The translations under genes were made by a program, and so were the position numbers. A stretch of DNA of 64,000 nt, from the NCBI GenBank assembly GCA_900188465.1, contig FZPE01000001.1, forward strand, positions 1,302,001 through 1,366,000. Reading direction: 5' to 3'. Numbering within the stretch: the stretch's first letter is position 1; each line of letters opens with the position of its first letter. This DNA is from Micrococcales bacterium KH10. GTDB lineage: Bacteria > Actinomycetota > Actinomycetes > Actinomycetales > Cellulomonadaceae. The notes below the pieces were generated by a model. It was not told the DNA's origin. It was given only the letters and a program-made list of their open reading frames with translations, and searched no databases. Below are positions 2,145-39,145 of the stretch, piece after piece.

Positions 2145-2990
2145 GTGACCACACCATCGTCGCAGACCCCCATCCGTCCGGTCTCACCGCGCCACTACCT
2201 GATGGCCCGCCCGACGTACTACACCGTCAACTACCAGATCAATCCGTGGATGCATCCCGAAATCGCCACGGATGGCTCATTGGCCATGCAGCAGTGGCAG
2301 GAGTTGCACGACCTGTACGTCCGGATCGGACACCACGTCGAGGTTATCGAAGGCGCGCCCGGTTTGCCGGATATGGTCTATGCCGCCAATGGCGGGCTCG
2401 TCGTCGACGGCATCGCCGTGGCCGCGAATTTCACCTACCCGGAGCGGCAGGGGGAGACCGAACTGTATGCCGACTGGTTCCGCAGCGCTGGTTTTGAGGT
2501 GCATTACACCGACGAGGTCAACGAGGGCGAGGGCGATATTCTCACCGTGGGCGACGTTATCTTGGCGGGTACTGGGTTCCGCACGAGCACCAAGGCCCAT
2601 GAGCAGATCGCCAAGGTCACAGGCCGCGAGGTCATCTCGTTGGAACTCGTCGATCCGCGTTATTACCACCTGGACACGGCGCTTTCGGTACTCGGCCCAG
2701 ACCTGATCGCGTACTACCCACCGGCGTTCTCGCCTGCTTCGCGCGAGGTGCTTTCCCAGCGCTTCCCGGACGCATTGATCGCCACGGATGCTGACGCCGC
2801 GGCGTTGGGCCTGAACCTGGTGTGCGACGGGGTGCACGCCATGATGGCGCCGCGCGCGGTGGATCTGATCGAGAAGGTGCGCGGTCGCGGTTTCACCGTG
2901 CATACAGTCGACACCTCGGAACTGCTCAAGGGCGGTGGCGGGATCAAGTGCTGCACGCTGGAGCTTCGCTCCGCGTTCGCCACCAGCTAG
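2145..2990 (+). CDS. ddaH: Dimethylarginine dimethylaminohydrolase-type amidinohydrolase
   Basis: Pentein-fold guanidino-group hydrolase: Nw,Nw-dimethyl-L-arginine to citrulline plus dimethylamine, or a related arginine derivative. At 281 residues it has the normal family length. The catalytic His is in RYYHLDTAL (His175) and the nucleophile in KCCTLELR (Cys269 or Cys270). The ANGG loop and the MVYAANGG segment near residue 80 fit the substrate pocket. The GTG start has AGGAG 6-7 nt upstream. In actinobacteria this gene often sits beside rocD or an Lrp regulator; neither is here. Its stop codon directly touches the first copy of a 65-bp hairpin repeat. Confidence 0.88.
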   Translation: MTTPSSQTPIRPVSPRHYLMARPTYYTVNYQINPWMHPEIATDGSLAMQQWQELHDLYVRIGHHVEVIEGAPGLPDMVYAANGGLVVDGIAVAANFTYPERQGETELYADWFRSAGFEVHYTDEVNEGEGDILTVGDVILAGTGFRTSTKAHEQIAKVTGREVISLELVDPRYYHLDTALSVLGPDLIAYYPPAFSPASREVLSQRFPDALIATDADAAALGLNLVCDGVHAMMAPRAVDLIEKVRGRGFTVHTVDTSELLKGGGGIKCCTLELRSAFATS

Positions 2991-3055
2991 TTGCTGCAGG
3001 TTTTCTTTTATGTTGACGGTAAGTTTCCGGTCAACAAGAAAACTTTCCTGCGGCA
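2991..3055. repeat. 65-bp hairpin repeat, copy A
   Basis: This is one of two near-identical 65-bp direct repeats (the other at 3899-3963), with 60 of 65 positions identical. Each is an imperfect palindrome with outer arms GCAGG/CCTGC, inner arms GTTGAC/GTCAAC (TTGAC/GTCAA in copy B), a TTTCTT-type tract opposite AAGAAAA, and a 12-nt loop. Copy A starts at the base after the ddaH stop codon and lies 64 nt beyond the end of vapC1. I recognise no named element. Confidence 0.85.
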
Positions 3056-3118
3056 ATATCTGATCTGTGACGTGTCGGATCTGACCTCGCCATCAGTTCG
3101 CGTGCATGGAGGTCATGA

Positions 3119-3514
3119 CTATCCGGCCAGGACGAGACGCAGCCCGGGGATGTCGGCCCCCGCAAGTCGTTTATCTGAGGTGAGCAATGTTGCGTCCATT
3201 GCGAGCGCAAGCACGACGTAATGTGCGTCTGCGATGCGCACACGGTGGCGCAGTCTCCATACCTCTTCATTGAGCGCACCTGTTGCGATTCGCGCACATG
3301 CTAGATCTTGCCAGTTGGCAATCGCCGCATCGCACGCGTCTGCTGAGATCGCCCCCTGCCGTTCGAGACGCGCAAATGCCGAGAGCACCTCTGTATCGAT
3401 GAGGGTCGGCGCCATCAGGTCGCCACCGTGTAACTCCGCGAGCACAGCGCGATCCCCCAACAGCGCGTTTACTGCCGCACTCGCATCCACTACGAGCTTT
3501 CGTCGAGCGATCAC
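3119..3514 (-). CDS. vapC: PIN-domain ribonuclease toxin (VapC)
   Basis: Toxin of a type II toxin-antitoxin module; PIN-domain proteins are Mg-dependent endoribonucleases that usually cut tRNA or rRNA. The acidic centre is visible: LVVDASAAVNALLG at the N-terminus, DTEVLSAFARLE in the middle, and RIADAHYVVLALA with LLTSDKRLA near the C-terminus. The length of 131 residues is normal. Its start overlaps the antitoxin stop by 4 nt (ATGA), so the two are translationally coupled. The module sits between two copies of the 65-bp repeat. Confidence 0.9.
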   Translation of the reverse strand: MIARRKLVVDASAAVNALLGDRAVLAELHGGDLMAPTLIDTEVLSAFARLERQGAISADACDAAIANWQDLACARIATGALNEEVWRLRHRVRIADAHYVVLALAMDATLLTSDKRLAGADIPGLRLVLAG

Positions 3515-3807
3515 CGCCGGCGGCTCCGGTCGACAGCAACGTCTGACACCGCAGTAACGACACTCTCCGAACCTGAGGGAATGTCAAACTCGACGCGTAC
3601 CTCATCGATAAGTCGTACGGCATCAATGCCTTTGACCGGCGCTGACTCCTGCCGCGCAGCAACCCATTCCTCAACAGTGGGACGCGATAAGTCCTGACTC
3701 AGCAACCGAATCACGTAGTCCGACATGCTGAGCCCTTGGGTTTTCGCGCGCGCAGCCAACGCCGAGTGGAGTTCCGGCGGCACATTCTTCACCTGTAGCA
3801 TGCCCAT
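3511..3807 (-). CDS. vapB: Ribbon-helix-helix antitoxin (VapB/FitA-like)
   Basis: Antitoxin partner of the downstream VapC. Residues 3-40 (MLQVKNVPPELHSALAARA, then GLSMSDYVIRLL) are a ribbon-helix-helix DNA-binding domain of the FitA type. The C-terminal half should be the toxin-neutralising tail. The first ATG is at 3807 and a second in-frame ATG lies two codons later. Neither has a good ribosome site, so a leaderless or weakly initiated message is possible. GCATGC-type repeats before the start are likely autoregulatory sites. Confidence 0.85.
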   Translation of the reverse strand: MGMLQVKNVPPELHSALAARAKTQGLSMSDYVIRLLSQDLSRPTVEEWVAARQESAPVKGIDAVRLIDEVRVEFDIPSGSESVVTAVSDVAVDRSRRR

Positions 3808-3837
3808 AACATCACGCTAGCATGCTATGGACATGCT
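3795..3837. promoter_or_regulatory. Probable VapBC autoregulatory operator
   Basis: A perfect 10-bp palindrome TAGCATGCTA lies at 3818-3827, just upstream of the vapB start, flanked by related ATGC-containing sites (GTAGCATGCC at 3795-3804 and ACATGCTC at 3831-3838). Ribbon-helix-helix antitoxins of this family bind short palindromes over their own promoter; assignment here is inference from position and symmetry. Confidence 0.5.
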
Positions 3838-3898
3838 CTTGACTTCGATGACGGCATCGCGGACGCAAGATTTGTGCCACGCATTGGCCGCCCACCAG

Positions 3899-3963
3899 TT
3901 GCTGCAGGTTTCCTTTCTTATTGACGGTAAGTGTCCGGTCAACAAGAAAACTTTCCTGCGGCA
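3899..3963. repeat. 65-bp hairpin repeat, copy B
   Basis: Second copy of the hairpin repeat, in the same orientation as copy A and 908 bp away. It begins 22 nt beyond the end of the broken vapC2 and about 90 nt upstream of vapB1. The match to copy A may extend left into the bases CACCAG, interrupted by a 4-nt CTAG present only in copy A. It has the same outer GCAGG/CCTGC arms. Confidence 0.85.
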
Positions 3964-3985
3964 TTTTCTTCGTGTCGCGACGACC

Positions 3986-4408
3986 CTAGGCGCGCAGCGC
4001 TAACGTTTCGACGGGTTGCCCGGTTATCTCCGCAATGAGGTCAAAATCTTCATCGACGGCCAGGACAGTGAGTCCGGCCTTCTCGTCCGTGGCTGTAATC
4101 AACAGGTCCCGGATCGATGGCGCACGGTGCTGACTACGATCCACTAAGAGCATTTGCACCTCGAAAGCGCGGCCATCCATTGCGGGAGTAATGTACTCAA
4201 CTGGCATGAGAAAAATTGGTGGCATTTCAAAGGCTTCTCGACCCGCAATCCCGGATCGAACTGAATAGCCAAGTTCTAACTTTGTCAGCGCGGATATTCG
4301 CACCAAACCTCGTCAAATGCGCTCGTTCCACTCATCAAGATGCAATGATTCGCCCATCTGCATCCGGGCGTACGCCGACTTGTCGACGAGCCACCCGGTC
4401 ACTGCCAT
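3986..4408 (-). pseudogene. vapC: VapC toxin interrupted by an in-frame TGA
   Basis: The gene would start at the ATG at 4408, overlapping the vapB2 stop by 10 nt. It reads MAVTGWLVDKSAYARMQMGE and reaches WNERI, then hits TGA at 4315-4313 (codon 32) and continues in the same frame as RGLVRISALTKLELGYS to a natural end. The full 140-codon frame is otherwise a normal PIN toxin: first Asp in LVDKSA, Glu in LTKLELGYS, and Asp residues in APSIRDLLI and AVDEDFDLIAE. As no base is gained or lost, this is a nonsense mutation, not a frameshift. A shorter product from an internal TTG or GTG would lack the first catalytic Asp. Confidence 0.85.
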
Positions 4409-4623
4409 GCTGTTCCCATCACGGACGGATCCCCTAAATCTTGGAATACTTCCGCCGACCGGTTCCAGTCTTCGGCCGTGACCGTCACTGAGGATCTCGG
4501 AACATCGCCACCTTCGAGTTTGCGGCGCAGAAATTCATGACGGGACAGGCCCAATTCCGCCGCTTCCGCATCGATACGCTCGACGGCCTTGTCACTAAGC
4601 CCACGGATCAGCACGTTCGTCAT
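4399..4623 (-). CDS. vapB: VapB antitoxin (ribbon-helix-helix), partner toxin broken
   Basis: Antitoxin of 74 residues, intact. It begins MTNVLIRGLSDKAVERID and has the typical AAELGLSRHEFLRRKLEGG helix, resembling mycobacterial VapB proteins. The start at 4623 is chosen over an upstream in-frame ATG because GGAGGTGG lies just before it and the family begins with MTN. The C-terminal part (EDWNRSAEVFQDLGDP) should wrap the toxin. A 14-bp palindrome lies upstream. With its toxin interrupted it may act as an orphan autorepressor or protect against related toxins. Confidence 0.85.
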   Translation of the reverse strand: MTNVLIRGLSDKAVERIDAEAAELGLSRHEFLRRKLEGGDVPRSSVTVTAEDWNRSAEVFQDLGDPSVMGTAWQ

Positions 4624-4645
4624 AAACACCACCTCCACTGCTGAC

Positions 4646-4659
4646 GATATCGCGATATC
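4646..4659. promoter_or_regulatory. Palindromic operator upstream of vapB2
   Basis: GATATCGCGATATC is a perfect 14-bp palindrome made of two GATATC half-sites, centred about 30 nt upstream of the vapB2 start. Its position and symmetry fit the site bound by the VapB(C) complex for autorepression. This is inference. Confidence 0.6.
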
Positions 4660-4758
4660 AGCCAACGTACGCGGGGTTGGTGCAGTGGGCGCGGAGCGCC
4701 GGGCTCGGTACGGGGCGGGTTCGTTCTCGGGGACGAGTGAGCCTCCTGGGGTGGCGGG

Positions 4759-5442
4759 CTAAGTAGTGGGGACGAGTTGGCCCTCGGACATGGTGAGCAC
4801 TCGCTCCGCGACGACACTGGCTTCACCATGATCGTGGGTCACATACAGGGCCGTCGTCCCGGTCGAGCGCAGAATGTTGCGCAAATCGTGTGAGAGCCGT
4901 TCGCGTAAGTCACGATCAAGCGCACTGAGCGGCTCGTCCAATAGCAGCAAACGAGGTCGCGGCGCGAGCGCCCGTGCAAGTGCCACCCGCTGCCGCTGCC
5001 CACCGGACAGTGTCGCCACCGACCGCGACTCGTAACCTTCCAGGCCGACGAGCCGCAACAATTCCGTGACACGCTGAACCCGCTCAGCGCGCGGCACATG
5101 GTGCATGACCAGGCCGTAGTCGATATTGCCCGCCACATCACGGTGCGCGAAGAGCTGCCCGTCTTGAAAAACGAGGCCAAAGTCGCGGCGATGGACCGGT
5201 ACGTCGGCCAGATCCTGTCCGTCGAAGCGGATCAGGCCGCCAGCCAGCGATTCAAGTCCGGTGACGGCTCGCAGCAACGTCGACTTGCCACAACCGGACG
5301 GGCCGAGCAGCGCAACCGTGCTGCCTTGCGGCACATGCAGGCTGACTCCACGCACGGCCGCCACAGGCTGCGCGCCGCGCTCACCCGGATAGGTCACCGA
5401 GACGTCGATGACCTCAAGCCCCTTGGGCGTTGATCTGCTCAA
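4759..5442 (-). CDS. ABC transporter ATP-binding protein, thiamine-type uptake system
   Basis: Cytoplasmic ATPase energising the importer encoded just upstream. Visible motifs are Walker A GPSGCGKST (about residues 47-55), Q-loop LVFQDGQLFAH, signature LSGGQRQRVALARA, Walker B LLLLDEPLSALD and the H-loop YVTHDHGEA. Length (227 residues) and motifs fit the ThiQ/FbpC-like group without a long C-terminal regulatory domain. The start overlaps the permease stop by 4 nt. As last gene of a TPP-riboswitch-controlled operon its substrate is most likely thiamine or a precursor (inference from context). Confidence 0.9.
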   Translation of the reverse strand: MSRSTPKGLEVIDVSVTYPGERGAQPVAAVRGVSLHVPQGSTVALLGPSGCGKSTLLRAVTGLESLAGGLIRFDGQDLADVPVHRRDFGLVFQDGQLFAHRDVAGNIDYGLVMHHVPRAERVQRVTELLRLVGLEGYESRSVATLSGGQRQRVALARALAPRPRLLLLDEPLSALDRDLRERLSHDLRNILRSTGTTALYVTHDHGEASVVAERVLTMSEGQLVPTT

Positions 5443-8308: not shown

Positions 8309-8351
8309 ACACCACAGATCGCCCGCTCATGCGGAACGACGGTTGTGGTGT
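8309..8351 (-). promoter_or_regulatory. Expression-platform hairpin between TPP riboswitch and start codon
   Basis: ACACCACA (8351-8344 as read on the minus strand) pairs with TGTGGTGT (8316-8309), with an inner CCGC/GCGG stem. No U-tract follows, so control of translation or Rho access is more likely than intrinsic termination. The role is inference from position. Confidence 0.45.
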
Positions 8352-8357
8352 GAGCTC

Positions 8358-8442
8358 GACTTCCTCCACCGGTGCTAACCGGATCAGGTTCGAGGGTCTG
8401 CGATTCCAATCGCACTCTCAGCGCCTCTTGCGCTCCCCTGTC
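8358..8442 (-). promoter_or_regulatory. TPP (thi-box) riboswitch
   Basis: Read on the minus strand, the leader contains GGGGAGCG, the conserved GCTGAGAGT, then ACCCTCGAACCTGATC, CGGTTAGCACCGG and TGGAGGAAG, in the order and spacing of the thi-box aptamer. It lies about 95 nt upstream of the lipoprotein start. Thiamine diphosphate binding normally switches the downstream genes off, which identifies the transporter as part of thiamine supply. Confidence 0.95.
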
Positions 8443-8544
8443 GTGCTGTCCACATTACCGTATCGACAAAGCCGTTTGGGCTGTACGGTGGAGACAGTGG
8501 ATTGATCCGCACATTCGCGACGGAAAGCGATGAGAGGGGCATTG

Positions 8545-38758: not shown

Positions 38759-39145
38759 CGCCTCATCCTCGCCGGGATCGCTGCATGGGTTCTCAGTCGT
38801 CACACCATGATTCTCTCCGATACCCGAACCACATTTCTCGGTCGAGAGTCCTGGCAGGACTCCGGTCCGTGGCGTACCGCATGACGTTTGACGGGCGACC
38901 CGTCAGTTGAGTGCGCTTTCGGGCATTGGGTGCACCTTTATCACGCGCAAAAGGGCACCCTCATGCCCGAAACACTCACTGAGCACTTACGAGGTTGGGG
39001 AAGCAATATTCGGGTTGGGTGTCGCATATAAGGATGGGACAACCCGAATATGACGCCCTCAGCCAGAGATGACGCCCCAGGCGACAACACCATAGCGGCC
39101 AGCACAACCCCCGCCACGGGCAATTCCACAACCTCCAGGGACGAG
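38759..39145. other. Noncoding region with two long inverted repeats
   Basis: I see no supportable gene here; short frames overlap the tRNA or repeats. Repeat 1 has arms TTTCGGGCAT (38917-38926) and ATGCCCGAAA (38963-38972), with inner arms GGGTGC and GCACCC. Repeat 2 has perfect 12-bp arms ATATTCGGGTTG (39006-39017) and CAACCCGAATAT (39040-39051), 22 nt apart. They could be extra terminators for the ThrE leader side, structured RNA or protein-binding sites. Confidence 0.7.

Follow-up and report, generated by a model that had tools for sequence, protein, structure and literature searches.

What has placed two copies of a hairpin-forming sequence on either side of a toxin–antitoxin module, immediately behind the ddaH gene, and have these repeats anything to do with the genes they enclose? 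The question is raised by one locus of the window, as we call the whole 64,000-nucleotide stretch of DNA analysed here, and it touches on a broader one. The spread of short palindromic repeats in bacteria is understood mainly for REPs with their RAYTs, and many repeat families, the CGTC REPs included, have to our knowledge no known partner enzyme. An earlier note on this DNA reported the two repeats, and they are real: the copies, A and B, are 66 bp long, point the same way and are 908 bp apart (Table 1). As had been stated, ddaH ends (2990) on the base just before copy A begins. The stop of vapC2, a toxin gene that is indeed broken by an in-frame TGA, is followed after 21 bp by copy B. Both copies fold well beyond shuffled sequences (z −2.5 to −5.0), in keeping with the hairpins that had been read from them. 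An Rfam scan of the window matched nothing at either copy, and the element, for which the earlier note knew no name, is absent from the libraries and open papers searched.

Table 1. Features of the window discussed in the text (positions are those of the window)
Feature	Position	Strand	Evidence or remark
ddaH; left border of the segment missing in congeners	2145..2990	+	NF045659
Segment comprising A, vapBC1, B and vapBC2	2991..4758		missing in Rarobacter faecitabidus (G001) and in G002; tblastn
F1 palindrome copy A	2991..3056	−	66 bp; element orientation is the minus strand
vapC1, PIN-domain toxin gene, between A and B	3119..3514	−	PF01850, E 1.9e-6
vapB1, ribbon-helix-helix antitoxin gene, between A and B	3511..3807	−	PF22513, E 4.3e-7
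F1 palindrome copy B	3899..3964	−	60/66 identical to A
vapC2, reading frame broken by an in-frame TGA	3986..4402	−	
vapB2 antitoxin gene	4399..4665	−	NF050181, E 2.5e-30
Partial F5 copy	39010..39058	−	blastn, 80%, E 6e-7

The match between A and B is not a chance one, because the repeat belongs to a family found throughout the genome. When the genome and its relatives were searched, more than two copies appeared: BLAST and a covariance model together find about 27 copies of this family, termed F1, in the 2.8-Mb genome, 14 of them on contig C5. No convincing copy was found in 58 relatives, three congeners among them, the single borderline match having an E-value of 1e-3; on the genomes compared, F1 is a palindrome specific to its own species. 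The viral contigs searched for the F1 core pattern held none. The consensus reads (TA)TTGCCGCAGG-N4-CTTTCCTGTTGCCGGGAAACAAACCGTCGACAGGAAAG-N4-CCTGCGGCAA(TA). A search of the rest of the genome that allowed one mismatch at most found neither half copies nor larger elements with F1 ends, nor does any autonomous IS share these ends: TTGCYGCAGG-N4-CTTYC (≤1 mismatch) occurs only in the dispersed copies.

F1 copies lie 3′ of genes, mostly singly, behind ordinary genes and often between convergent ones. Among spacers defined by our own gene calling, on stretches chosen around the copies plus the window, 16 of the 26 that bear F1 are convergent, against 10 of 114 others (Fisher p = 3e-8), and 1 of 26 is divergent, against 35 of 114. 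At nine F1 sites the flanking genes are adjacent, and F1 is missing, in R. faecitabidus or G002. TA dinucleotides are frequent beside F1 ends, often on one side and in a few copies on both; no consistent target duplication was seen at F1 copies. In one copy (L163 5025-5116; C4:199824) the loop is split by GGTTGAGCCTGTCGAAACC, itself a dispersed repeat of the same genome. Genes for an HNH endonuclease and a DUF4143 protein (L150 5339-6229, L157 5796-6659) occur near two copies.

At the locus itself, the segment that holds both repeats and both modules is missing from two congeners. In R. faecitabidus, whose ddaH protein is the nearest to that of the window (73% identity; the genome is Rarobacter-like), and in G002, ddaH and the thi ABC gene stand end to end, their stops adjacent (tblastn). 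The empty site to be expected of a mobile unit is thus present and clean, but it is empty of both modules and both repeats, and for this reason it does not single out vapBC1 as a mobile cassette. Copy B is the nearest kin of copy A among the 27 F1 copies, and vice versa; since the two are mutually closest, local duplication is as likely an origin for the pair as two insertions. No unit of vapBC plus hairpin was duplicated, because the proteins of vapBC1 and vapBC2 are unrelated, and tandem duplication of such a unit is ruled out on the same ground. The bracketing of vapBC1 by F1 copies occurs once only. Two further features were recorded near this segment. One is a TPP riboswitch (Rfam, 58.2 bits) at window 8344-8449, upstream of the operon for thi transport. 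The other is an imperfect 69-bp palindrome at window 4714-4782, beside the stop of that operon; part of it resembles sequence flanking another palindrome family, F3, and among the matches listed it has no second copy.

Outside the window, another pair of F1 copies encloses a lone gene, C5:48970-49962. The copies, at C5:48897 and 50083, are inverted and 65/66 identical, the most similar of the 351 copy pairs, and the gene product combines an AbiEi_4 winged-helix domain with a PD-(D/E)XK-like C-terminus. The genome has five such AbiEi-like paralogs, and the family-wide search that yielded them gave matches in 181 of 221 genomes. When left flanks were compared with right flanks, paired palindromes of 60–90 bp were found around all five paralogs and around both of those in R. 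faecitabidus (scores 79–154; shuffle maxima 25–36), and each of these seven genes has a different palindrome family. Flank pairs scoring at least 45 occur in 14 of 26 other relatives and around none of 244 control genes (control maximum 43); at this threshold no pair was found in 12 of the 26 relatives or around the single homolog of G002. In the clear pairs one palindrome often lies 2–40 bp from the stop codon, and one copy lies upstream of each AbiEi-like gene.

The other palindromes are dispersed as well. Four families besides F1 recur elsewhere in the genome, F3 and F5 in few copies; F5, of which a partial copy lies in the window, flanks another of the AbiEi-like genes, C6:1287059. The families of relatives recur in their own genomes, at no fewer than 17 places in G137 and 23 in G036. 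R. faecitabidus has a family of its own, with 21 to 22 clear copies (covariance model), several of them following genes that are followed by F1 in the genome of the window. One pair of this family flanks a 40%-identical homolog of the C5 gene. Another palindrome pair in this species (C1:621194/622044) flanks a gene that is presumably the core methyltransferase rsmD from the way it reads, so ordinary genes are bracketed too. In G036, inverted palindrome pairs 200–560 bp apart (C2:22241/22658, C8:79351/79912, C2:456475/456687) are reminiscent of REPINs.

The C-terminal half of the AbiEi-like proteins resembles a nuclease. Residues E222, D254, E265 and K271, together with others in this half, are invariant in 16 of 16 homologs, a set that we take to be the pattern of PD-(D/E)XK nucleases, and the E, D and ExDxxxK residues conserved in that group are present in the 16 members. 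Pfam DUF559 gives a weak match to only 2 of the 16 (best E 0.016), and no solved structure matched the protein. From the residue pattern, then, the C-terminus is a putative nuclease domain of the PD-(D/E)XK (Vsr/DUF559-like) kind.

The genes recur at particular chromosomal sites, with palindromes that change from species to species. Of 28 loci from other genomes, 16 have the AbiEi-like gene next to tuf, to rpsJ or to the two together. In G036 and G137 it lies between the two, and the palindromes on both sides are unrelated between these genomes; at this site the gene is kept and the palindromes differ between species. Sites near rpsD (G002 and the genome of the window, G000) and near dnaK (G000, G001) are shared as well. 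The two genes at the dnaK site may not be orthologs, because their proteins have no more than 48% identity and resemble paralogs of their own genomes more closely than each other. Protein similarity and repeat similarity are correlated (r 0.49, p 0.0002), a relation that comes largely from two close pairs and is confounded by taxon and base composition. The gene was found in 1 of 72,556 plasmid records and in none of the viral contigs, a scarcity that recalls the RAYTs.

We consider it probable that F1 is a dispersed, non-autonomous palindromic element, comparable to the REPs of RAYTs, that its partner is the C5 gene, and that vapBC is a bystander. We infer that the AbiEi-like protein would bind, cleave and mobilize the palindrome: the winged helix would recognize the palindrome that belongs to its gene, and nicks or cuts made by the nuclease domain would allow that palindrome to be copied, or inserted, at other places. 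Copies would persist mainly in 3′ and convergent spacers. Every paralog has a palindrome family to itself. A and B may have landed, or been duplicated locally, in an accessory toxin–antitoxin segment between ddaH and thi.

The palindromes might instead be the operators of an AbiEi-like repressor, the upstream copy serving self-control and the dispersed copies a regulon of other genes. AbiEi-family antitoxins do repress their own promoter, to which they bind at paired inverted repeats of 23 bp (PMC7319586), and the palindrome upstream of each gene is where such an operator would be. The second copy, just behind the stop codon, is not, and the dispersed copies shun the divergent promoter spacers (1/26). 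Nor does repression need a conserved nuclease-like active site, and on these points we regard control by a repressor as unlikely. Less likely again, in our view, is a classical transposon, with the AbiEi/nuclease gene and its long palindromic ends as the autonomous element and the dispersed copies as its MITEs. The arrangement of a gene between matched ends, with many short copies lacking the gene, invites this comparison, as do the TA dinucleotides beside F1 ends. A transposon, however, would hardly be represented by one gene per family, keep to conserved chromosomal sites (tuf-rpsJ, rpsD, dnaK), or be so nearly absent from plasmids and missing from the viral contigs; nor was target duplication at F1 copies consistent.

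It is improbable that selection maintains the hairpins as terminators acting in both directions, or as 3′ structures that stabilize RNA. Their strength and their place behind genes, mostly convergent ones, would suit such a role, but compensatory changes are not in excess: in 22 aligned F1 copies, paired cells and covariation both fall below the shuffled mean. Selection for RNA pairing in F1 was rejected on the covariation result. Furthermore, F1 has no T run, several of its spacers contain a separate hairpin, and it is absent from the same spacers in congeners. Variability among F1 columns is very uneven (mean 2.9, variance 15.1), the arms being near invariant and two inner quartets hypervariable, and the constraint looks like that on half-sites in DNA, not like that on a hairpin in RNA. 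Most doubtful of all is the proposal of the earlier note, which suggested either cassettes, each toxin–antitoxin unit being followed by a recombination or transposition site, or a non-autonomous element that carries vapBC: A and B do bracket vapBC1 in a segment missing from congeners, but they are the only 2 of 27 copies to touch toxin–antitoxin genes, vapBC1 is unrelated to vapBC2, neither module and neither repeat is present at the empty site, and the supposed extension of the match into the ddaH end (CACCAG) is at chance level, the A–B flank alignments ranking 56th and 87th of 702 flank pairs.

The reading we favor, of F1 as a dispersed palindrome with the C5 gene as its partner, leads to a more general proposition, on which our judgment is evenly balanced: that actinobacteria have a novel class of mobile palindrome systems, in which chromosomal AbiEi-type winged-helix/PD-(D/E)XK nucleases each recognize and spread a 60–90 bp palindrome family of their own, and in which enzymes unrelated to RAYT have come independently to a like arrangement. 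If so, a second gene family, unrelated to RAYT, would be associated one-to-one with palindromes and would be a candidate enzyme for orphan repeats. A role would also be suggested for lone ‘AbiEi antitoxin’ genes, and recognition and spread would become testable with a few purified proteins and 66-bp DNAs. No description of AbiEi or DUF559 proteins with repeats or palindromes was found in open papers.

Among known systems, REPtrons are similar in that a chromosomal gene is flanked by copies of a palindrome that is also scattered through its genome (PMC3733652, PMC8266576, PMC3116915). They are similar, too, in having repeat-specific families where several exist, species-specific turnover, dispersed copies behind genes and between convergent genes (for F1, 16/26 versus 10/114) and dimer-like inverted pairs, seen here in one relative (G036). 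The enzyme differs. RAYT (TnpA_REP) is an HuH tyrosine transposase, whereas the protein here joins a winged helix of the AbiEi type to a PD-(D/E)XK-like domain; the Y1 transposase domain (PF01797) has no match in the genome, and 5 of 14 controls match it. Because of this difference we do not count the system as a REPtron, despite the shared anatomy, location and turnover. REPs also carry a GTAG tag at the foot of the palindrome and number in the hundreds, whereas the F1 consensus and flanks lack GTAG, the ends being CTATTGCCG...CGGCAATAG-like, and the copies here number in the tens, as palindromes of 60–90 bp. TIRtrons, in which a transposase gene is flanked by long repeats, some self-complementary and some in dispersed families (PMC3733652), are likewise comparable in having a gene between long repeats of dispersed families, but their TIRYTs are HuH tyrosine transposases and the AbiEi-like proteins are not. 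Integron cassettes, in which many movable genes each have their own recombination site, served by a cognate tyrosine integrase, differ in that F1 copies are single, behind genes whose neighbors adjoin in congeners (nine sites).

AbiEi and Rv2827c, of the Type IV toxin–antitoxin system AbiE, share the N-terminal AbiEi-type winged helix (PF13338; PMC7319586), and since AbiEi-family proteins bind paired inverted repeats, recognition of the palindrome by the AbiEi-like protein is plausible. AbiE has an adjacent DUF1814 toxin gene; the C5 unit is a single gene between its repeats, and no toxin gene was seen next to it. The AbiE antitoxin differs from the protein here, in which a nuclease-like motif is conserved in the C-terminal domain and whose palindromes lie also behind the gene and dispersed. 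The CGTC-tagged REPs, finally, are also dispersed palindromes with no tyrosine transposase alongside, and have no known partner gene (PMC3733652). The palindromes described here differ from them in having a candidate.
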